A stretch of DNA of 51,828 nt from a virus: the IMG/VR virus record IMGVR_UViG_3300031578_000049, positions 1 to 51,828 of that record; one strand, 5' to 3'. The translations under genes and the position numbers were made by a program. Shown piece by piece: positions 34,618 through 43,551 of the stretch (position 1 is the stretch's first letter; each line of letters starts with the position of its first letter). Under the pieces are notes generated by a model. The model saw only the letters and a list, made by a program, of their open reading frames with translations, was not told the origin of the DNA and did not search any database.

Positions 34618-35388
34618 TTATGCAGCCTCGAGTTCCGATACATCAACTTCCCAGACGTCGCCTGCAGAATCTTCGACCTGGGCTGTGTCATCGTCCATTT
34701 CGACAACGACGCCTTTCACAGTGTCGCCTTCCTCATCTTGGAATTTGACCTTGCTGCCAGTGCGAATCTTCTTAGCTCGGCCTTTACCCTTTTTCTTTTT
34801 GGGTGCCGGCTCTTCTTCTTCATCTTCTTCTTCTTCTTCGTCCTCTTCTTCTTCTTCGGGCTCTTCTTTCTTCTTGCGGGAACGACGCTTCTTAGGAGCT
34901 TCTTCTTCCTCTTCAGGCTCCTCGTCTTCGTCTTCCTCTTCCTCTTCACCTTCCTCTTCTGCGCCCATGAAGCCAGTGATGCGAGGACGATCTTTTCCTT
35001 CATAGTCCTCGTTGGTCACCTCAATACCAGCGACTTCACCAATCAAGTCGTTAGGATCAATGTCCATGTCGTCTTCTGCCACTTCCAATCCCAAGCACTC
35101 GAGAATAGTTCGGAAGCGCCACAGCGACTGCGGCTGCAGAGAGATGTTGTCGTGAATCGTAGCGCCAGCGCATTTGCCATCCGCGATCTTCCAAACGCAG
35201 TGCAAATACGGCTCACCACTGTTCTGTCCTTCTTCCTGGGTGAGCTTGTGAAGGGATGCGTTGTAGTTGCCATCTGGAACTGGACGACCACCGCCTGACT
35301 CAACACCTTCAAAGTTGACACTAATCATTCCTGACTTTTTCTTGCTAGACCTTTTCTTGCGAGTGGATGCTGCTTTTGCTCTTGCCAT
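34618..35388 (-). CDS. DUF669-like ssDNA-binding protein with acidic/basic linker and SH3-like tail
   Basis: 256 aa. Residues 1-19 are Lys/Arg-rich. Residues 20-140 match DUF669-type phage proteins (VPDGNYNASLHKL, PYLHCVWKIADGKCAG, RFRTILECLGL, DYEGKDRPRITGF), which act beside annealing ATPases as ssDNA-binding partners. Residues 140-210 alternate Glu/Asp blocks with Lys/Arg blocks. The last 48 residues (GSKVKFQDEEGDTVKGVVVE) resemble a KOW/Tudor-like barrel. The ATG follows CCAGGAGAAAGTA, shared with the nuclease gene at 37200, and overlaps the Sak4 stop (TAATG). Confidence 0.75.
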   Translation of the reverse strand: MARAKAASTRKKRSSKKKSGMISVNFEGVESGGGRPVPDGNYNASLHKLTQEEGQNSGEPYLHCVWKIADGKCAGATIHDNISLQPQSLWRFRTILECLGLEVAEDDMDIDPNDLIGEVAGIEVTNEDYEGKDRPRITGFMGAEEEGEEEEEDEDEEPEEEEEAPKKRRSRKKKEEPEEEEEDEEEEEDEEEEPAPKKKKGKGRAKKIRTGSKVKFQDEEGDTVKGVVVEMDDDTAQVEDSAGDVWEVDVSELEAA

Positions 35389-35401
35389 TACTTTCTCCTG
35401 G
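35386..35401 (-). promoter_or_regulatory. Ribosome binding cassette CCAGGAGAAAGTAATG
   Basis: Strong AGGAG with seven-base spacing before the ATG of the DUF669-like gene. The same 16-base string occurs at 37198-37213. Here it also encodes the last codons of the Sak4 gene. Confidence 0.75.
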
Positions 35402-36236
35402 TTACTTTCTTCTTGGTTGCCTTCTTCTTTGATGGTATTATCTTTCCTGTTATGAGATTCACGATCTTCTCATGAGTTGGATCAACAACAAAATCGGGAA
35501 GCGGTCCTGCTTCTACTGGTCTGCGCACCTTCGTTGAGTAAAAGGCATGAGGACCGATGCGCATACAGTAGTCCACAGACCTAACTTTCTTTCCTGCTTT
35601 CTTGGTATAGGACTCTCGAATGAACGTACTGCCGATAGCATCGACCGCTCCATCAATGAAAGATCCCACACTGGGCATTACTCGAGCACCAACGCTCGGC
35701 TCTAATGCCTCATCCTCTTCTTCACCGCCATCGAATGTTCGCTCATGCGCGATGAAGCACATATTGTAATCATCAGCCAGAGCACGGAAGTTGGCGATGG
35801 TCGTCTTTAACAAGCCAGACAGATTGCCCCATTCCTTGCGAGTGAAGAGTTCGCTCTCGCCTTTCTTCGCTCGCTTCCTGATCTCAGCCATGCCCAAGTC
35901 CTGCAGGTTAGTCATCTGATCAATCACGATTGATTTGTACTTCGTCCCTTCCTTGAGATACCAGAATGCATCTTCGATGTCATCCCAGCTCGTCACCTTT
36001 AGAAGGTCGATGTTCTTCTTGTGAGCAATCGTCTCAGTGCCTCGCTCGTTGATGTCCAAGAACAGAATAGGCGTAGGAAAGGTAGAGCCAAACTCCGTCT
36101 TGCCCGTTCCTGAGCGGCCATACACTAGCATGACTAGATGTTGCATGAGTTCGGTCACTGGCGAAATCTTACTTGCTATTGACTTTCCGCTTTTTGGCGC
36201 GCTTCTTTGCAACTTTCTTTTTACTTTCTTTGCCAC
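35388..36236 (-). CDS. Sak4-like RecA-fold recombination ATPase
   Basis: 282 aa from a GTG at 36236 with GGGAG seven bases upstream. Walker A is GRSGTGKT (residues 40-47), Walker B is SIVIDQM (Asp106), and the layout (GTETIAHKKNI, FTRKEWGNLSGLL, CFIAHE) is that of Sak4 single-strand annealing/RecA-like ATPases. They work with the adjacent ssDNA-binding protein. Both ends are Lys-rich (AKKVKRKLQRS and KKKATKKKVTRRK). The first 22 codons overlap the end of the upstream nuclease gene in another frame; the stop overlaps the next ATG. Confidence 0.85.
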   Translation of the reverse strand: MAKKVKRKLQRSAPKSGKSIASKISPVTELMQHLVMLVYGRSGTGKTEFGSTFPTPILFLDINERGTETIAHKKNIDLLKVTSWDDIEDAFWYLKEGTKYKSIVIDQMTNLQDLGMAEIRKRAKKGESELFTRKEWGNLSGLLKTTIANFRALADDYNMCFIAHERTFDGGEEEDEALEPSVGARVMPSVGSFIDGAVDAIGSTFIRESYTKKAGKKVRSVDYCMRIGPHAFYSTKVRRPVEAGPLPDFVVDPTHEKIVNLITGKIIPSKKKATKKKVTRRK

Positions 36237-37200
36237 TGAATTTCTCCCGATCTACATAGTGAGCCTTCTTGACGAAGTTAACGTCTAGTCCTCTGACATC
36301 TGCTTCGCATAGTTGTTTGAATTCGCATCCCTGGCAGTTGAACTTGCTCATACTGCGTGGGTGAATTCCTTTCAGGTTCTCAATCATGGCGGTAGTCGCC
36401 CGGAAGTCCTCGACAATTTTCATGATCTGCTGTTGAGATGGTGCCGGCAAGAAGACGCGCTCAAAGAACATCAGATCGTTCTTCTCGAGTTTCTTCAAGA
36501 ATGGCTGATAAGGTTTTGGATCCAGATGGTGCTTCTTAATCTGCGCCTCATACGTGGCTCGATCACAACGGATGTTCGCACGTTGAGACAGTTCTCCATT
36601 CTTCAGAACGTCAGGCAAAGTCGGAGGAGTTGTGCGAACGTAGTCCCAAACAATACCGTCAGCCGGTCTACTGGCCTGCCAGCGATTCCAAGCCCAGATG
36701 TACAAGATCAACTGCAGTTCGTGGAAGCGATCTTCAGGACCAGGAATAGACGCATGGAACTTGTGATCCATCAGCCAACGACGCTGGTGTTGATCCATAG
36801 CCACCTTGTCGATATAGCCAATGAATCTGAAGTCGGCCATGATATCTGTAGCCACAAAGATTTCACTGTCTTCATATTTCAGATCGTCATTCTTGTACTT
36901 CTTCATGTACGCTTCGAAGATCCGCTCAATCTCCCCGATGATATCACCGTGTTCTTCCTTCTCTTCCGCAAAGAATGTCTTGAACTCTTCAGCGTATTTC
37001 TCAAGTGCATCCCAGGCGTCTTCTGGAAAGTCCTTGAGCTTCTTCGACATTACATGGTTATGCAACATCTCATGCAAGATCTTTCCTCGTAGCATAGGAA
37101 GGATAGGTCTCTTGCGTGTGAGACGTTCGGAATAACGGTAATGATGTGCCTGCATGCATTTGCGAAACAGGTTGACTTCACTCCAACTCGTAGATGGCAT
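36169..37200 (-). CDS. Fe-S PD-(D/E)XK exonuclease, RecB/Cas4-like
   Basis: 343 aa. Motifs: His43 in ILHEMLH, Asp131 in GYIDKV, Asp145-His-Lys147 in LMDHKF, and Gln163 in ELQLILYIWAW, the RecB-type nuclease order. Cys15 near the N-terminus and Cys289, Cys292, Cys298 near the C-terminus match the one-plus-three cysteine pattern of an iron-sulphur cluster in Cas4/AddB-like nucleases. The tail is Lys-rich (ESKKKVAKKRAKKRK). Placed directly before Sak4 and the ssDNA-binding gene, it probably resects ends to feed annealing. No CRISPR array or cas genes are nearby. The ATG has the shared CCAGGAGAAAGTA leader. Confidence 0.82.
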   Translation of the reverse strand: MPSTSWSEVNLFRKCMQAHHYRYSERLTRKRPILPMLRGKILHEMLHNHVMSKKLKDFPEDAWDALEKYAEEFKTFFAEEKEEHGDIIGEIERIFEAYMKKYKNDDLKYEDSEIFVATDIMADFRFIGYIDKVAMDQHQRRWLMDHKFHASIPGPEDRFHELQLILYIWAWNRWQASRPADGIVWDYVRTTPPTLPDVLKNGELSQRANIRCDRATYEAQIKKHHLDPKPYQPFLKKLEKNDLMFFERVFLPAPSQQQIMKIVEDFRATTAMIENLKGIHPRSMSKFNCQGCEFKQLCEADVRGLDVNFVKKAHYVDREKFSGKESKKKVAKKRAKKRKVNSK

Positions 37201-37254: not shown

Positions 37255-39750
37255 TCATTCAACAAACTTTACGCCTTTGCCCCAAGGTCCTACTTCAAGC
37301 TCTCCCTCCATAGGTAATCCCAGATTGATTTTGAAAGTCTTCATCAATTTAGGTTCCCGCATGATACGCAGAACTTTAGGTAACACCTCGGATTTGTATT
37401 CTGTTTTCACGATTCCGAGAATGGCGTCATGGTGCTCACCAACCAAGCGGAACTTCTTGCGATCAATCGTCTCGTGTACTTCGACCATCACCGCTGCTTT
37501 GTAATCGCCAATGAACCCCTGAATTGGGCTGTTGATAGCTTGCCGCTCGGCTTCCATGCGAACGAACTTGTCCCTGGCTTCGATACCCGGCAATCTCCGC
37601 AATCTCCCAAACAAGTTCCGAACATAACCGTTGAGCTTCGCCAGCTTCTTCATTTTGTTGTGCCATCCCTTCAACCCCGAGTACAAACTAAAGTAAGATT
37701 CACGTGCTCGATGTGCTTCGTCAAACGTAGCATCCCACTGATACTTCACGCGAGCAGTCTCCATGAATTTCTTTTCGTACATGCCATAGAGGAAACCAAA
37801 GTTGATAGCTTTCGCTTTCTTACGTCCTTCTTTCCAGCCTCCCCAGATAGCGGTGCAGACTTCAGGCCCTGCGACAGTTACGATCTCAGCATCTTCCACT
37901 AGCGTCCTATTGCTTCCTTTCTTGAGAGATTGGGCCGTCTCCCTGAGATTCCGCACATATTCCCCGAGGCCTGCTGACGTAAGAGTGTGCATAAGTGTTC
38001 GCCAATGGACATCAATGTCTTCGGTGAAGCATCTTCTAAGCTCCCCATCACCACTAGCAGCCGCTGCAGCGCGGAGTTCAGCTTGAGAGATGTCTCCTTG
38101 GACGAACTCCCATCCATCGGGAGCGGTAATGAGATTTCTAATTTTGCCATCTCGGGGAATAGAGTGAATTCTAGACGAGTAGCGTCCTGTAACTGTACCA
38201 TGAAGTTTATAGCTGACATAGAGTTTATCTCCTACCATGAATTGTTGAAAGCCGTTGATGTACGTGCTGATGAACTTCGCTCGTTCCCGGTAAGCCACCA
38301 GCTTATCCACCGCCTCATGAGTGCCCATCAGGCCGAGTATAGCAGTCTCAGACGTCGAGGGGCTCTTCTTCTTAGTCCATTCAACGCATTTCAATCCAAG
38401 CTCGTTATACAGGACCTGAGCGACCTGAGCGGGAGAATTCCAGTTAACCTTGTGTCCCGCTATCCGGTTTAGGTCTTGTTCGAGTTGGATCTTCTCCGAC
38501 AGTAGCTCAAGACCGATGTTCTCCATGGCTTCGAAGTCTACTGTCAATCCTTCCATCTCGATGTCTTCCATTGCTCGAGCCGCAGGCATGACCAGCTTAT
38601 AGAACAGACGTCTGAGTGGCAAGGATTCTTTGAGTTGTTTCTGGAAGAGCTTGACGAGTTGCAAAGTGTAAGTACAATCTTCCGCACAGTATTTGAAGTT
38701 GGGCATTGGATCTTCAGTGATTCCCTGCTTCCACTTTAATGGGATGTCGTATTCTGGAACGTCCAAGAAGTCCCGACAATTAGATGTCAAGTCGTTGGCG
38801 GTATTCTCGTTGAGAGTATGCGCGGCCAACATTCCATCGAAGTTCAGGTGGAATCCTGCGCCGAATTGATTTCTAAGCCAGAGGTTATCAAACTTAGCGT
38901 TCCATCCATACGCTTTCTTCTTCGTGACTCGTTGGATCCTGACTAACTCGAGAAGTAACAGGGATAGGGCCTTTCCTCTTCGCCAAGGACCAACGCCATA
39001 CTGTGCGAAGTCGGGATGCATATGGCAAGGTATAATCCAAGTTCTCTTTGGGAGAGCGATGCCAATGGCGGTGATGTACTGGAGTCTCTTCGGGTCTTTA
39101 TGTTGGAAGAGACCTGACGTTTCCAAGTCAAAAGCGAACTCAGATGCTGCCGTGAATTCCTTGATAAAGGTTTCAAAGTTTCCTCTCCTAACGATATTCC
39201 ATTTGAAGCTTCGGTCTTGGCTTTCACCATTGACCGCTCGTGCGAGTCGAGCGATGTCGTTTTGGAAGCCAGGAAGCTTAGACGGGTCTCGCATTGTGTA
39301 CGCTGGATGGTAGGTGGGCATCCCGATGTAATTGACTCGATCATTTTCTATCAGCTCCCCATGAAATTGATTGATCTTCGCTTTGCCTCGGAACAAAGCC
39401 TTAGTAGGTGGTAGTCCTATAGTGAGAACAAACTTCGGGTTAAGTTCTAGCAATTCCTTTTCGAGATACGGCTTACACGCTCGAACTTCATCCTGAGTCG
39501 GTGCTCGTTTATCTGGCGTCTGACACTTGACCAGGTTTGTGATGTAGGCGTCTTGTAATCCGTTCTTCTGCAATTCCCTTTCAAGAATCTTTCGAGGTTC
39601 ACCAGCAGTCGGTATGCCTCGTCTCAACGGCAGCGGACTATCCGACACAATCACAACGTCTGGGTTCTTAGGTCCTACTCCTGCCACACATACTGGCTCG
39701 GCATATTCCCAGAGCCCACAGTCACGACAATTTGGATTGAGGCTTTTCAA
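37255..39750 (-). CDS. DNA polymerase A with N-terminal family-4 UDG-like domain
   Basis: 831 aa, TTG start (AGGACC upstream). Residues 1-175 resemble family-4 uracil-DNA glycosylases: Cys8, Cys11, Cys76 and Cys92 fit the Fe-S spacing, and YHPAY (His148) fits motif B, but the GE-x-PG catalytic loop is replaced by SDSP. Exonuclease: FDLE (Asp208, Glu210), NAKFDN (Asp288), YCAED (Tyr354, Asp358). Polymerase: motif A GDISQAELR (Asp553), motif B AKAINFGFLYG (Lys647, Phe651, Tyr655), motif C HHDA (Asp775). Motifs A and B lie about 94 residues apart, about 40 more than in E. coli Pol I. This is the replicative polymerase; UDG-Pol fusions exist in SPO1-type phages. Confidence 0.9.
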   Translation of the reverse strand: MKSLNPNCRDCGLWEYAEPVCVAGVGPKNPDVVIVSDSPLPLRRGIPTAGEPRKILERELQKNGLQDAYITNLVKCQTPDKRAPTQDEVRACKPYLEKELLELNPKFVLTIGLPPTKALFRGKAKINQFHGELIENDRVNYIGMPTYHPAYTMRDPSKLPGFQNDIARLARAVNGESQDRSFKWNIVRRGNFETFIKEFTAASEFAFDLETSGLFQHKDPKRLQYITAIGIALPKRTWIIPCHMHPDFAQYGVGPWRRGKALSLLLLELVRIQRVTKKKAYGWNAKFDNLWLRNQFGAGFHLNFDGMLAAHTLNENTANDLTSNCRDFLDVPEYDIPLKWKQGITEDPMPNFKYCAEDCTYTLQLVKLFQKQLKESLPLRRLFYKLVMPAARAMEDIEMEGLTVDFEAMENIGLELLSEKIQLEQDLNRIAGHKVNWNSPAQVAQVLYNELGLKCVEWTKKKSPSTSETAILGLMGTHEAVDKLVAYRERAKFISTYINGFQQFMVGDKLYVSYKLHGTVTGRYSSRIHSIPRDGKIRNLITAPDGWEFVQGDISQAELRAAAAASGDGELRRCFTEDIDVHWRTLMHTLTSAGLGEYVRNLRETAQSLKKGSNRTLVEDAEIVTVAGPEVCTAIWGGWKEGRKKAKAINFGFLYGMYEKKFMETARVKYQWDATFDEAHRARESYFSLYSGLKGWHNKMKKLAKLNGYVRNLFGRLRRLPGIEARDKFVRMEAERQAINSPIQGFIGDYKAAVMVEVHETIDRKKFRLVGEHHDAILGIVKTEYKSEVLPKVLRIMREPKLMKTFKINLGLPMEGELEVGPWGKGVKFVE

Positions 39751-40173
39751 TTAAGGTCCTATCCATCCAGTTACTCCAATCCCGGCAGATCGAAGTAAGG
39801 CTAGAGGTTCTTCGTCTCGATAAGGAATGACATAGACGAATCGACTTATGCCAGCGTTGATCATCAGCTTCGCGCAATCGTTACAGGGACTGTGAGTGCA
39901 ATACAATTCGGCGCCATCAGTTTCTACTCCCGTCTTCGCAGCGAAGGCGATGGCATTAGCTTCCGCATGAACAGTACGGGTGCAGGGTTCTGTCTCGCTT
40001 ACATGATGATTGCAATGAGGCAATCCTCGTGGCGCTCCGTTGTATCCACTCGAAAGAATGCGACCATCTCGAACGAGGATAGCCCCAACCGCTAATCGCT
40101 GACAAGTAGAACGTCGGCTGACTAGCTCAACGATGTTGACGAGTAATTCTTCTCGGTTTATTCTTCTTAACAT
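39751..40173 (-). CDS. dCMP deaminase
   Basis: 140 aa from the ATG at 40173 (AAGGA six bases upstream); a TTG two codons earlier is less likely. Zinc site: HAE at 69-71 and PCNDC at 96-100. SSGYNGAPRG is the substrate-loop phrase of deoxycytidylate deaminases. It converts dCMP to dUMP and so feeds a thymidylate-synthase-type step. Directly upstream of the polymerase gene and downstream of the TS-fold pair, in one leftward operon. Its stop abuts the polymerase TTG start. Confidence 0.9.
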   Translation of the reverse strand: MLRRINREELLVNIVELVSRRSTCQRLAVGAILVRDGRILSSGYNGAPRGLPHCNHHVSETEPCTRTVHAEANAIAFAAKTGVETDGAELYCTHSPCNDCAKLMINAGISRFVYVIPYRDEEPLALLRSAGIGVTGWIGP

Positions 40174-40426
40174 GTCCAATCCTTATTGCTTTCCGATTTC
40201 GCAAAGCTCTGTAGGCATCTTTCAATGATGCGTGTCGAGTTCCATGATCACCACTAAGCATGAACTGATGGAACTGCGTCTTTCCTTTCTGATGGACCCT
40301 GCAGCGCAAGTCAGGGTATTCATTGCAGACCCACTCCTGACAAGTCCAGGCATGACCGTCGCAGAAGACCGTAGCTCTCCACGTCAGTTCTTTAGCTCGG
40401 TAGTGTTTCAATTGAGTAGTCTTCAA
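40127..40426 (-). CDS. Small Cys/His-containing hypothetical protein
   Basis: 99 aa from a TTG; no good ribosome binding site, and both ends overlap neighbours (by 47 bases with the deaminase and 35 bases with the gene upstream). It has a Cys/Trp-rich core (FCDGHAWTCQEWVCNEYPDL) and a basic tail (VKKNKPRRITRQHR). The core looks like a small folded domain, so the gene is plausible, but translation is not firmly supported. Confidence 0.45.
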   Translation of the reverse strand: MKTTQLKHYRAKELTWRATVFCDGHAWTCQEWVCNEYPDLRCRVHQKGKTQFHQFMLSGDHGTRHASLKDAYRALRNRKAIRIGHVKKNKPRRITRQHR

Positions 40427-40700
40427 TGACAGAGAAATATCCTTTGTCTTTCATTCGATCCAATCGAGCATGGATGTTCTTATCCGTTAGACATTCTTCC
40501 TCAGTGAACATCTTGCAAGGTCCGGTTAACTGAGCCAAAGCGAAAAGCTCACGGACTAGGGATCGCTTATGAAAAACAGCGTTCAATCCCAACTGGGTAA
40601 TGGCGTATTGCCAATAAGCATATCTCTTAGATCCTCGCGTCGGTGGAACAACACTTACTGACCAAACGCCATCAATGATGTCATATTCTCTTGTAGCCAT
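40392..40700 (-). CDS. Hypothetical protein, possible winged-helix fold
   Basis: 102 aa from the ATG at 40700, overlapping the previous stop (TAATG) with GAGG upstream. It reads as a mixed alpha/beta protein with LVRELFALAQLTGPCKMFTE and a C-terminal MKDKGYFSVIEDY strand, somewhat like winged-helix regulators. The family is not recognised. It lies within the nucleotide-metabolism operon. Confidence 0.5.
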   Translation of the reverse strand: MATREYDIIDGVWSVSVVPPTRGSKRYAYWQYAITQLGLNAVFHKRSLVRELFALAQLTGPCKMFTEEECLTDKNIHARLDRMKDKGYFSVIEDYSIETLPS

Positions 40701-41479
40701 TATTTGTAATCCTCGCATATTGTTCGATAGTCATTCTCAAAGCAGTGCATCGACACACAGTGAAACACGAACATTCCCGGCTTGATGCCTTCCCATCCGG
40801 GTTGAACACGTAGACAATCCATCATGTATATCTGCAGTCTCAGAGAAAGATAGAGGTCATCGCGAAAGTGCCGCGTAAAATCGCAAGACCTTATATAATA
40901 GGTCATGTGCAAATAGCCGTGTCGATGCAGGAAGTGATAGCCCAGGGTACAGGGTACTCTCTCCCCATGGACTACTCCCGTATCTTCAGGGAACCAGATA
41001 GGAAGGTAAGCTTGTCGAGTCTCTGGGTTGTTCGTCAAGTGCTCAACGACATCTGATAGCTCACCCGGCGCAAATCTTATTCCCTCAGGCCCGTCATGTT
41101 CTCCTGCATTTTTTGGCCAATATCGTTCCATGTAGGTATGAGAAAACTGACTTCCCTTTGTGCGGAATTTGTCAGCAGATAGCGCATAGGGCCAATTTCG
41201 CCATTGAACGCCAGGGTTGAGAGGGAGTCCGCCAACTCGTTCTTCGAAGTGATCGTCTGCCCAAGGAAGATTCGGTTGTATATCTTCCTGATAGGAATTG
41301 TGGTCTTCATCATTTAGTTGCACCGTGAATGAGGTGTTGAATAATTCGCGCATCTTCATCTCGGGTTTGTCCGAGACGTCAATGCTCTGCCAACGCTTTC
41401 CATCGACAACATAACCGACTCGCACTAGCGATCTGCCAACGTCGTTGATGGCATCTCTGAATCTAGCGTACATTTTCAC
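40700..41479 (-). CDS. Thymidylate-synthase-superfamily enzyme, dCMP-hydroxymethylase-like
   Basis: 259 aa. The TS fold is recognisable along the chain: NPGVQWRNWPYALS, a YMERYWP counterpart of the GPVYG-x-x-WR region, NNPETRQAYLPIWFPED, catalytic VPC (Cys177), YIRSCD (Arg197-Asp200), and a C-terminal SMHCFEND counterpart of GD-x-H-x-Y. From Cys177 to Arg197 is 20 residues and from Arg197 to Asp208 is 11, exactly as Cys146, Arg166 and Asn177 in E. coli ThyA. Position 208 is Asp, not Asn. In T4 dCMP hydroxymethylase the same Asn-to-Asp change sets dCMP use. The product may therefore be hydroxymethyl-dCMP or another 5-substituted dCMP. Its four-base overlap couples it to the second TS-fold gene. 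Confidence 0.75.
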   Translation of the reverse strand: MKMYARFRDAINDVGRSLVRVGYVVDGKRWQSIDVSDKPEMKMRELFNTSFTVQLNDEDHNSYQEDIQPNLPWADDHFEERVGGLPLNPGVQWRNWPYALSADKFRTKGSQFSHTYMERYWPKNAGEHDGPEGIRFAPGELSDVVEHLTNNPETRQAYLPIWFPEDTGVVHGERVPCTLGYHFLHRHGYLHMTYYIRSCDFTRHFRDDLYLSLRLQIYMMDCLRVQPGWEGIKPGMFVFHCVSMHCFENDYRTICEDYK

Positions 41480-42306
41480 TTGCGCTTGCTCCTCGGCGTG
41501 TAGTCCTCTTTACTATTATAATGAATCTTCGGCAACGGTTTACCGAATTTCAAATGTTTCTTCTCCAAATACTTCTTTATTCTCTTCATGTCGAGATTAG
41601 CCCACGCGAACTTGTGTTGAACATTCTCTGGGGAGAAAGGGAAGTGCTGATCCTCCCTATAAGCAGACCGCAGAAAAAATCTAGTTCCTCCGGTGAACAG
41701 CTTTTTATCATGCTCCCAAAGATAGTCGAGGAACTCAACAGGATCCCAATGTGCACAGAGAGTTGGGAAGAAAACTCCTGAGAGGTAAGCATTCGCAAAT
41801 CGAAATCGGAATAAGTCTGGACTGAGATCAAGTTCGTCCAAGATGTATTTGAGAAAGACGAGATCAGCTCCGAACTTTTGAATGACTTCTGTAGACCGAT
41901 ACTGGACTTCAACCGTCTCCATATCTTTCTTCCAGGAGATGATGAGGGACTGCATACAGTGACCCATACTCCTCTTATCTTTTTTGGCTCCTCGTAAAGA
42001 CATCGCAACCGAAGTGAACGATTGTCCCGCACGGTGATCGAGTAATACTCGAACTCTCTCAAGTTCGTCAGGATCAATATAATTCCGCTGAAGCTGTTTG
42101 AATTTGTTATTTCCATAGCCAAGGTCCTCATAACTGAGATCCGGTAACTCGGGAATCGTCCAAGTGATATCTTGAACAATCTTCCTCACACCAGAATAAA
42201 GAAACGCTTCCTTCTCGATGCACGCTTTGATCAATCCTTGTGGCCAGTAACTCACAGGTAGCCACTGTACTTGTCGAGAATCACAAGATGATTCGGTCCA
42301 ATCCAT
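41476..42306 (-). CDS. Divergent thymidylate-synthase-fold paralogue
   Basis: 276 aa if started at the ATG at 42306; a GTG at 42255 overlapping the previous TGA (GTGA) is an alternative, since neither has an ideal ribosome binding site. SMGHC (Cys117) is followed 20 residues later by YRSTE (Arg137-Glu140) and 11 after that by Asp148 in FGADLVFL, the same spacing as in the neighbouring TS-like gene and in ThyA. Upstream, TSVAMSLRG resembles the Arg-containing strand before the catalytic Cys; downstream, FRFANAYLSGVFFPTL may be the nucleotide-closing strand. It may form a heterodimer with its neighbour or act on a related base. Confidence 0.6.
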   Translation of the reverse strand: MDWTESSCDSRQVQWLPVSYWPQGLIKACIEKEAFLYSGVRKIVQDITWTIPELPDLSYEDLGYGNNKFKQLQRNYIDPDELERVRVLLDHRAGQSFTSVAMSLRGAKKDKRSMGHCMQSLIISWKKDMETVEVQYRSTEVIQKFGADLVFLKYILDELDLSPDLFRFRFANAYLSGVFFPTLCAHWDPVEFLDYLWEHDKKLFTGGTRFFLRSAYREDQHFPFSPENVQHKFAWANLDMKRIKKYLEKKHLKFGKPLPKIHYNSKEDYTPRSKRK

Positions 42307-42680
42307 CCTTTAGGTTTCACCAAGTCGAAGGGCATGTCAGGTCGCTTCTTGTTGGCGCCTACTTCCTTCATCAGATTCGCTCGATGAACTTCATCCCAAT
42401 GCCATTTCCAACGAAGGCCCATCATCACAGCCGTTCCTTTCGCCACGACTACCAGATCAACCAAGGCGTCTATCTGTTCGAGATAGTCTCCATTCTCAAC
42501 AGCCCTTCTGAATTCATCAAGTTCCTCCTGAAGAAAATCAGCTCGAGCCAGCAACGTAGCTTTGTCACACACAGAGGGTTTCAACTTGACGTTACTCCAG
42601 AATTTGTCGTGCATCTGAGCGATGTCAACAGTTTCGGAATCTTTGAAGTATCTTTCAAACGTAGTTCTATCAGTACTCAT
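42252..42680 (-). CDS. MazG-like all-alpha NTP pyrophosphohydrolase
   Basis: 142 aa, ATGA overlap with the kinase gene, AAAGGGG upstream. The helices carry FLQEELDEF and QIDALVDLVVVAKGTA, the EExxE and later Asp pattern of MazG/dUTPase/PRA-PH enzymes, and DEVHRANLMKEVG, a family signature after the last core helix. It probably hydrolyses a dNTP to dNMP and pyrophosphate. In a modified-base scheme it would remove dCTP or dTTP and supply the dNMP for the TS-fold enzymes. The substrate is not visible from sequence. Confidence 0.78.
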   Translation of the reverse strand: MSTDRTTFERYFKDSETVDIAQMHDKFWSNVKLKPSVCDKATLLARADFLQEELDEFRRAVENGDYLEQIDALVDLVVVAKGTAVMMGLRWKWHWDEVHRANLMKEVGANKKRPDMPFDLVKPKGWIGPNHLVILDKYSGYL

Positions 42681-43198
42681 TGCGGTGTCCCCTTTCGGAT
42701 GAATGCCTTGATTGAATCCAGAACCAGCTGAGGTGGTCCGGTGTAGTCATAGCGTTTGATGTAAACGCCTTCCTTTTCGAGAGAGCCCATAAGATCGTCA
42801 TAGGCCTTGATAATTTGTCGATGGTTCAGAACGACTCCATCCATCTGCACTTCCCTTCTAACCCCGGCAGCCAGAGCTTGATAGTTAGGTCGGCAATGAA
42901 TGATCATTGTATCTTTGAACCAACGGGCTAGCTGCTCTATTGACAAGGCATGCATACACTTGCCACGGATGATAGGCCCGTAGACGTATTCTGATAGAAC
43001 AGGGTTTCTGTCTGTGATGATTGGTAAAGATGAATCTCGGAGAGTGGTTAGAGTTCCAATAACATTAGCTAACTGTCCGAGAGTATGGGGAGGACCATTG
43101 GATCTTAAGAGAAGCAGGTACTCGTCAATGTCCTTTCTTATTCTTGTGGCCAGAGATGTCTTACCAGAGCCATCTGCGCCTTCGAGTATCACTAACAT
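42677..43198 (-). CDS. Thymidylate/deoxynucleoside monophosphate kinase
   Basis: 173 aa from the ATG at 43198 (GGGAGA ten bases upstream); longer in-frame starts run into the divergent promoter region. P-loop GADGSGKT (residues 7-14) opens the protein, TDRNPVLSEYVYGP is the DR-type substrate motif of thymidylate kinases, and a basic lid region (GVRREV) follows. It phosphorylates dNMP to dNDP with ATP. It is the first gene of the leftward operon and would activate the product of the TS-fold enzymes. Confidence 0.8.
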   Translation of the reverse strand: MLVILEGADGSGKTSLATRIRKDIDEYLLLLRSNGPPHTLGQLANVIGTLTTLRDSSLPIITDRNPVLSEYVYGPIIRGKCMHALSIEQLARWFKDTMIIHCRPNYQALAAGVRREVQMDGVVLNHRQIIKAYDDLMGSLEKEGVYIKRYDYTGPPQLVLDSIKAFIRKGTPQ

Positions 43199-43284
43199 TT
43201 TTTTATTTTCTCCCAGAATTTCCATGTTTTCGCAAAGTGGTTTATATTGCGAGATCCGTCCATTATAAATCGAAGGTTTCACAA
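43199..43284. promoter_or_regulatory. Divergent promoter/operator region
   Basis: Gap of 86 bases between the leftward kinase gene and the rightward HTH gene. A TATAAT lies on the minus strand at 43267-43262 with no good -35 box (TTTTCA or similar at 18 bases). On the plus strand TTTATATT near 43242 and ATTATAAA near 43262 form an imperfect inverted repeat, a possible operator for the HTH protein. Assigned by position and sequence only. Confidence 0.45.
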
Positions 43285-43551
43285 TTGAAAATCCAAAATT
43301 CACAGGTGTTTTACGGTGACGACGAGTACAATGTTGTGCCGCAAAAACACTTTCCTTATTTTACGCTGGCAGAAGCGGCAGAGAGACTCGACATTCGTAA
43401 GCAGAGGTTGAGTAGGATGTTGAGGATTCTTCAAGTTCCTATTCATAAGATTGGAACACTGGTTCTGCTGGATGATGAGGCTCTTAGTCGAATCAAAGCA
43501 GCGGTCAAACAACACGAGGTCAGGCGCGGAAGAAAACCAAATGTCGAATAA
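43285..43551 (+). CDS. Small HTH (MerR/excisionase-like) DNA-binding protein
   Basis: 88 aa from a TTG at 43285 with GAAGG eight bases upstream; there is no ATG in frame. YFTLAEAAERLDIRKQRLSR is a helix-turn-helix of the HTH_17/MerR N-terminal type, followed by a wing-like IHKIGTLVLLDDEALSRI. The C-terminal tail is basic (RRGRKPN). It is divergent from the replication operon and overlaps the primase start, so it may regulate one or both transcripts or assist origin recognition. Confidence 0.65.
   Translation: MKIQNSQVFYGDDEYNVVPQKHFPYFTLAEAAERLDIRKQRLSRMLRILQVPIHKIGTLVLLDDEALSRIKAAVKQHEVRRGRKPNVE

Follow-up and report, generated by a model that had tools for sequence, protein, structure and literature searches.

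The window analysed here, a 51,828-nucleotide stretch of the IMG/VR virus record IMGVR_UViG_3300031578_000049, carries a minus-strand operon (39751-43198) whose best reading is cytosine modification before DNA synthesis; most likely, a virus of bacteria makes an altered cytosine for its own DNA. The operon encodes a TMP-kinase-like enzyme, a PRA-PH pyrophosphatase, two proteins with a thymidylate synthase (TS) fold, which we call A and B, and a dCMP deaminase, and it adjoins a UDG-PolA polymerase. The overall plan is already known from phage T4, but the two key enzymes lack residues that mark the T4 enzyme. An earlier note on this DNA had described a leftward nucleotide cluster beside the DNA polymerase, and both statements hold: every gene that it named is present on the minus strand where it had been placed, and the polymerase comes directly after the deaminase. 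The genes of the region are the following.

42677..43303, minus strand: deoxynucleoside-monophosphate (TMP-type) kinase; phrog_761 (thymidylate kinase), E 2.9e-12; P-loop GADGSGKT
42252..42680, minus strand: all-alpha NTP pyrophosphatase (PRA-PH/MazG-like), presumed dCTPase; PF01503, E 6.7e-13
41476..42306, minus strand: TS-fold protein A ("HMS"), divergent TS superfamily, Asp177-type; AlphaFold2 fold and invariant residues
40700..41479, minus strand: TS-fold protein B ("TS259"), putative dCMP-type C5-modifying enzyme; PF00303, E 1.1e-7, with fold and residues
40392..40718, minus strand: small ORF of 108 aa inside the operon, without known family
40127..40426, minus strand: small ORF of 99 aa inside the operon; relatives at the same place in loci L001, L002 and L003
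39751..40179, minus strand: dCMP deaminase; PF00383, E 4.3e-25; phrog_174 (dCMP deaminase), E 2e-50
37255..39750, minus strand: DNA polymerase A with an N-terminal family-4 UDG-like domain; PF00476, E 4.7e-64; PF03167, E 1.1e-18
36169..37200, minus strand: Cas4/RecB-like exonuclease, a conserved neighbour; PF12705, E 5e-20; phrog_1218
35388..36236, minus strand: Sak4-like ssDNA annealing protein, a conserved neighbour; phrog_124, E 4e-34

The genes for the kinase, the pyrophosphatase, A and B are joined by start/stop overlaps (ATGA, GTGA and GTGA). The kinase likely starts at the internal Met at 43198, as was also proposed earlier, and protein A at a GTG at 42255 that overlaps the stop of the preceding gene. 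Against Pfam and against the NCBIfam profile DTMP_kinase, the kinase gives sub-threshold matches only. The pyrophosphatase shows the metal motif EELDE...EQID, and the zinc site of the deaminase is complete by sequence, with HAE (H71/E73) and PCxxC (C99/C102). Both small ORFs sit between B and the deaminase. Searches of Pfam, PHROG and NCBIfam assigned the 99-aa product to no known family; the 108-aa product had no Pfam, PHROG or meaningful NCBIfam match and no relative among the fetched loci. Neither these ORFs nor the UDG-like domain fused to the polymerase figured in the earlier note. Among the window ORFs scanned, no glycosyl- or carbamoyltransferase was recognised as a downstream modifier.

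Protein B is labelled "thymidylate synthase" in databases and matches PF00303 with 31.8 bits (cut-off, 24.3). The best fold matches of its model are 9iqc (Z 19.7), 9iqu (Z 19.2) and MilA (Z 19.1), the gap to ordinary TS structures (Z about 18) being small. These neighbours act on dCMP or CMP: 9iqc and 9iqu are a phage dCMP hydroxylase, and MilA is a CMP 5-hydroxymethylase. Among 85 sequences of the B family, C177, R197, D208, H245 and R174 are invariant. After the His, B has 14 residues, T4 dCH has 30, and a canonical TS (Huwbert ThyA) has 56; the folate-closing C-terminal tail of canonical ThyA is missing from B.

Protein A has no Pfam or NCBIfam match and falls only in phrog_34294, which carries no assigned function. 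Profile HMM searches, proposed earlier as a check on these proteins, place B in PF00303 and the pyrophosphatase in PF01503 and leave A without a Pfam family. Yet the AlphaFold2 model of A (pLDDT 89) matches the TS fold, with a VIA Z of 12.5 to 9iqu (167 residues, 3.5 A); the VIA Z to TS is 10.9, and Foldseek gives an E value of 1.7e-5. The sole invariant residues among 48 A sequences are Y76, C117, R137 and D148. When A was aligned to the B family with hhalign, the match had an E value of 0.0046 and a low probability, with Cys, Arg and Asp in register. A PDB profile match between A and a protein with tendon repeats was set aside as a repeat artefact. On the strength of its model, A is a TS-superfamily family without a Pfam model and with a clear predicted active site; most of its relatives bear the label "hypothetical protein" or "pyrimidine hmase synthase".

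The residues that set substrate choice in this superfamily point to cytosine. An Asp occupies the TS Asn177 position in all 85 B and all 48 A homologues, with the exact spacing found in TS (C+20=R, R+11=D), and position 147 is non-His in the TS-fold proteins. According to the MetaGPA report (PMC8670742), an Asn-to-Asp change at position 177 of TS switches the substrate from dUMP to dCMP, and Asp177-type TS, PRA-PH and dCMP deaminase genes co-occur on modified-cytosine contigs. The Asp in both TS-fold proteins, their linkage with kinase, pyrophosphatase, deaminase and polymerase, and this co-occurrence agree with the cytosine-modification logic put forward in the earlier note.

The same gene order is found in phages of Pseudomonas, Serratia, Yersinia, Gordonia, Streptomyces and Mycobacterium; cultured phages share it whether their hosts are Gram-negative bacteria or actinobacteria. 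A and B occur together in such cassettes in PMBT14, Serbin, Yersinia P744, GTE2, NoShow, Muddy and Zuko. Since the same set recurs in the same order in dozens of independent phages, it is not a chance assembly. Loci with A nearly always carry the deaminase (57/60), the pyrophosphatase (56/60), the kinase (57/60) and the polymerase (57/60). These genes are far rarer at the 50 loci that have B without A (6, 4, 1 and 4 of 50, respectively). A is never alone: B accompanies it at 60 of 60 loci and in 18 of 18 phage records. Upstream of B in loci without A, we looked for hidden A homologues, and the ORFs there look unrelated by eye (IMPDH-like, phosphoesterase-like and DNA-methyltransferase-like). 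Scanning viral contigs with the protein A sequence alone gave no match; the profile for the viral contig scan came from a tight alignment. The genome contig scan found a single MAG contig.

Cassettes vary in their details. In some relatives, other genes separate A from B, and some have a third TS-like gene, ThyX or a canonical TS as well. The pyrophosphatase slot is filled by PF08761 (dUTPase_2) in Serbin, P744 and Muddy and by PF01503 in others; T4 gp56 matches PF08761 and, weakly, PF01503, whereas the pyrophosphatase of the window matches PF01503 only. Separate dTMP synthases are encoded by several relatives, namely, a canonical Asn-type TS in Huwbert and ThyX in MW202455, MW202777, L010 and L103; therefore, the A-B pair does not simply serve thymidylate synthesis.

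Taken together, it is probable that the cassette produces a dCMP substituted at C5 ahead of DNA synthesis and that the phage polymerase is supplied with this nucleotide instead of normal dCTP. The analysis shows the set of genes with its order and conservation, and the fold and residue signatures of A and B; from these we infer which substrates are used, in which direction the steps run and what kind of group is added, as follows. The pyrophosphatase would convert dCTP to dCMP. Cys177 of B would then attack C6 of dCMP while Asp208 reads the cytosine, and C5 would receive either a one-carbon group or an oxygen group. A, with its own Cys/Arg/Asp site, would work with B, whether by catalysing the next step or by pairing with it as a subunit. 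The kinase would phosphorylate the modified dCMP, with kinases then yielding the triphosphate, while the deaminase would turn leftover dCMP into dUMP for dTTP. Finally, the neighbouring UDG-PolA polymerase would incorporate the modified nucleotide. The resulting nucleotide may be 5-hydroxymethyl-dCMP, 5-hydroxy-dCMP or dCMP with some other group at C5. The literature searched gave no virion nucleoside data for cassette carriers, nor did we find published DNA modification data for Muddy, the Gordonia phages or PMBT14; MMDA13, considered as a comparison, was dropped as a 7-deazaguanine phage.

Several explanations compete at the level of the chemistry. It is possible, if doubtful, that B works as a genuine dCMP hydroxymethylase, in the manner of T4 gp42 or MilA, making 5-hydroxymethyl-dCMP with methylene-THF, and that A is an accessory paralogue, as first proposed. 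B does have the TS fold, the catalytic Cys (C177) and the Asp179 equivalent (D208), MilA is among its nearest structures by sequence and by fold, and it lacks the folate-closing tail, as does T4 dCH. However, the published signature of dCMP hydroxymethylases includes an Asp or Glu three residues before the catalytic Cys, described as needed for water activation (PMC6400193), and this position (Cys-3) is Arg174 in 85/85 B homologues and Met in protein A of this phage, which speaks against hydroxymethylation as such. The Ser/Thr expected two residues before the Tyr is also missing from B, being replaced by His114 in 84/85 homologues (Y116 is taken as the Tyr96 equivalent from sequence only), and the position of T4 Tyr218 holds Phe in 75/85 and Tyr in none. 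A slightly weaker candidate is a flavin-dependent dCMP 5-hydroxylase, consisting of B or of the A-B pair, that makes 5-hydroxy-dCMP like the hodCMP synthase of RB69/HY126, an enzyme type that belongs to the TS superfamily (PMC13390438). The models of A and B both score their best Z to 9iqc/9iqu; B and RB69 ORF048c both end 14 residues after the His, both have Phe at Tyr209 and both have a Tyr and a basic residue after the Asp (DLYLSLR/DFYLQGK); and a kinase gene lies close to the RB69 hydroxylase gene as well. Yet the Z of 19.7 for B ties with the 19.1 of MilA, and neither the Glu that RB69 has at Cys-3 nor its Thr close to the Tyr is present here.

A similarly uncertain proposal concerns how A and B act rather than what they make: together they may form one putative obligate heterodimer, each completing the active site of the other. 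Their genes are adjacent and translationally coupled, A was always found with B, and TS enzymes form dimers in which a site is shared between the subunits. On the other hand, B stands alone at 50 loci, some relatives have other genes between the two, and distance trees revealed no A-B co-evolution beyond the descent shared with the polymerase (partial r -0.16; a weak test, with 23 loci). Far less credible is an ordinary dTMP-supply operon in which A and B convert dUMP to dTMP. In its favour, dUMP would come from the deaminase and the pyrophosphatase, and the database label of B fits. Nevertheless, we reject ordinary thymidylate synthesis because of the Asp at residue 177 in every homologue, the missing tail and the separate ThyA or ThyX of relatives, and position 147 also tells against it; such action on dUMP, which the earlier note had set against its own reading, thus appears disfavoured, to judge from the sequences. 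We tentatively suggest that the C5 chemistry on dCMP differs both from the hydroxymethylation of T4 and from the hydroxylation of RB69, a suggestion that we rate no higher than the hydroxymethylase explanation. B, with Arg at Cys-3 and His near the Tyr, might make or trap a C5 intermediate that A completes, either in sequence or paired with B as a subunit; the outcome would be a cytosine base that has so far not been described in DNA and is common to phages of Proteobacteria and Actinobacteria, Muddy included.

Mycobacterium phage Muddy has been used clinically against drug-resistant M. abscessus. If our reading is true, small viruses of the siphophage type, a large group with Muddy among them, have modified cytosine, made by genes annotated as thymidylate synthase. 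This would bear on restriction, CRISPR resistance, sensitivity to type IV restriction, engineering and sequencing of these phages. As the protein A family has a clear active site and no Pfam model, the modified base and its chemistry are directly testable on cultured phages.

In T4, hydroxymethylcytosine is made by gp56 dCTPase, gp42 dCMP hydroxymethylase, gp1 dNMP kinase and cd dCMP deaminase. The T4 logic seen in the earlier note stands in part: the steps are the same and most are drawn from T4's superfamilies, but the published hydroxymethylase signature is missing. Its claim that other families do this work is not supported, since gp42, which shares a superfamily with A and B, matches PF00303 as B does, and the gp56 family, PF08761, fills the pyrophosphatase slot in several relatives. 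Unlike in T4, the genes are compactly clustered, there are two TS-fold proteins (three in some relatives), no Asp/Glu stands at Cys-3, and the polymerase is of the UDG-PolA type rather than family B.

The MetaGPA clusters likewise bring TS, PRA-PH and dCMP deaminase together, with Asp177 and a non-His147, but they carry a carbamoyltransferase, of which none was seen here; the portion of the cluster description available to us (PMC8670742) makes no mention of a protein-A-like family. MilA, which among solved structures is nearest to B in sequence and is also Asp-type, differs in belonging to an antibiotic pathway and in having, by phmmer alignment, the Asp at Cys-3 that B lacks. Finally, the RB69/HY126 hodCMP synthase (AfhB; PDB 9iqc and 9iqu) has low sequence similarity and a Glu/Thr signature missing here, and arabinose genes were not recognised here either; even so, it offers the nearest solved fold of both A and B, and it resembles B in its short C-terminus and Phe, with a kinase gene nearby in RB69.

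The window is a phage record of 51,828 bases. Its minus strand carries, from 43198 down to 39751, a run of five overlapping or adjoining genes; re-examination reproduced both the coordinates and the gene calls of the earlier note. Two small ORFs of no known family separate B from the deaminase (A and B are the proteins assigned the thymidylate synthase [TS] fold).

Minus strand, from 43198: TMP-kinase-like protein, first in the operon
Minus strand, between kinase and A: PRA-PH/MazG-like pyrophosphatase
41476-42306, minus strand: A, a 276-aa ORF that probably begins at the GTG at 42255 (259 aa)
40700-41479, minus strand: B, 259 aa, after A
Minus strand, down to 39751: dCMP deaminase, fifth gene
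37255-39750: UDG-PolA polymerase, after the deaminase
After the polymerase: Cas4-like exonuclease, then Sak4-like protein

A 99-aa ORF of no known family (40127-40426) has clear relatives in the same spot of three homologous loci (L001, L002, and L003) and is possibly a small cassette accessory. The polymerase carries an N-terminal family-4 UDG-like domain that retains the HPA motif and has SDSPL as its first active-site motif, which is usually GEGPG in this family; one possibility is that the domain binds uracil or a modified base without excising it.

The TS fold proposed for both proteins holds. B matches PF00303 above the Pfam cut-off, and its model matches 9iqc, a flavin-dependent phage dCMP monooxygenase (Z 19.7); MilA, a CMP 5-hydroxymethylase and, among solved structures, the closest to B in sequence (19.1); and TS (about 18). 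A has no match in Pfam or NCBIfam, and its PHROG matches are all “unknown”; its fold is supported by a confident AlphaFold2 model (pLDDT 89, built from 26 relatives), which matches the TS-fold enzyme 9iqu (Z 12.5), MilA (11.8), and TS (10.9), and by its catalytic residues. Y76, C117, R137, and D148, and no others, are invariant across 48 distinct A homologues, and the spacing (20 residues from Cys to Arg, 11 from Arg to Asp) is common to A, B, T4 gp42, and RB69 ORF048c. A canonical TS has both of these spacings, with Asn at the last position. A therefore has a complete TS-type catalytic set. We found no characterization of A in the literature covered by the search; it is not wholly unnoticed, since two records annotate it as “pyrimidine hmase synthase.”

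Some relatives have a third TS-like gene between B and the deaminase, making three in a row where the window has two. Its small product (178-226 aa) matches the A family profile (E 5e-11) and retains Tyr, Cys, Arg, and Asp.

L084:9613-10161, L086:8702-9268, L090:2891-3523, L091:7257-7805: third TS-like ORFs
L010:6821-7501, L098:8716-9333, L100:8117-8698, L103:8624-9160: third TS-like ORFs

The cassette probably modifies cytosine. According to the MetaGPA study of modified-cytosine contigs (PMC8670742), Asn177 to Asp switches the substrate from dUMP to dCMP, Asp177 and position 147 are the top two features separating TS on such contigs from the rest, and TS, PRA-PH, and dCMP deaminase occur together there. 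In B, position 147 is not His. Several relatives own an extra dTMP synthase besides the pair: Huwbert has a canonical Asn-type TS, whereas MW202455, MW202777, L010, and L103 have ThyX; thus, the A-B pair is not simply for thymidylate.

Published marks of T4 dCMP hydroxymethylase are Asp179, Asp (Glu in some phages) at Cys-3, and Ser/Thr two residues before Tyr (PMC6400193). B has Asp179. It lacks Asp/Glu at Cys-3, having Arg174 in 85/85 homologues, a count that needs no gap, and lacks Ser/Thr before Tyr, having His114 in 84/85, with Tyr assigned by sequence only; A has Met at Cys-3. Because a published mark was looked for and is absent, we do not file B as a hydroxymethylase. RB69 ORF048c carries the Glu/Thr variant; more recently, enzymes of the RB69 type have been described as making 5-hydroxy-dCMP (PMC13390438). 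B resembles the RB69 protein in its short C terminus, Phe at Tyr209, and Tyr plus a basic residue after Asp, but is without its Glu/Thr; B therefore forms its own class. The group placed at C5 could be hydroxymethyl, hydroxy, or another. The observation of the earlier note is confirmed, and cytosine modification is likely.

The arrangement from kinase through pyrophosphatase, A, B, and deaminase to PolA is repeated, with some gene gains and losses, across phages of Pseudomonas, Serratia, Yersinia, Brevundimonas, Gordonia, Microbacterium, Streptomyces, and Mycobacterium. Counting some truncated loci and overlapping pieces of one contig, A-bearing loci have a nearby deaminase in 57/60 cases, pyrophosphatase in 56/60, kinase in 57/60, and polymerase in 57/60; for loci with B but without A, the counts are 6/50, 4/50, 1/50, and 4/50. 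A is always accompanied by B (60/60 loci, 18/18 phage records), whereas B is frequently present without A; the dependence thus runs one way, from A to B or to the cassette. Distance correlations indicate that the cassette genes share descent with the polymerase, and they hold no extra A-B signal beyond it.

Mycobacterium phage Muddy (L110), a therapy phage, has the full cassette (gp44-gp49), with A (gp47) annotated “hypothetical protein” and the deaminase (gp45) “hypothetical”; its DNA is predicted to contain modified cytosine. Elsewhere, B without A lies immediately downstream of an IMPDH/GMP-reductase-like ORF with no cassette genes nearby, or, in three loci, downstream of an ORF resembling C5-cytosine DNA methyltransferase, which suggests another possible way to combine cytosine modifications.

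L058:4891-5955, L080:4940-5998, L062:4880-5947, L032:4789-5955: IMPDH/GMP-reductase-like ORFs, by eye
L011:4893-6014, L012:4450-5706, L013:2964-5126: C5-cytosine DNA methyltransferase-like ORFs, by eye

The cassette plan works like the T4 hmC pathway. The earlier note had assigned its steps to other families; this does not apply to most of them. T4 gp42 and B have PF00303 in common, and T4 gp56 matches PF08761 and, weakly, PF01503, while the pyrophosphatase slot holds PF01503 in the window and PMBT14 and PF08761 in Serbin, P744, and Muddy. New relative to T4 are protein A, the third TS-like gene of some relatives, the clustering into a compact operon, and the kind of polymerase. The cluster class is already known, and A together with the residue pattern of B makes this cassette a variant of it.
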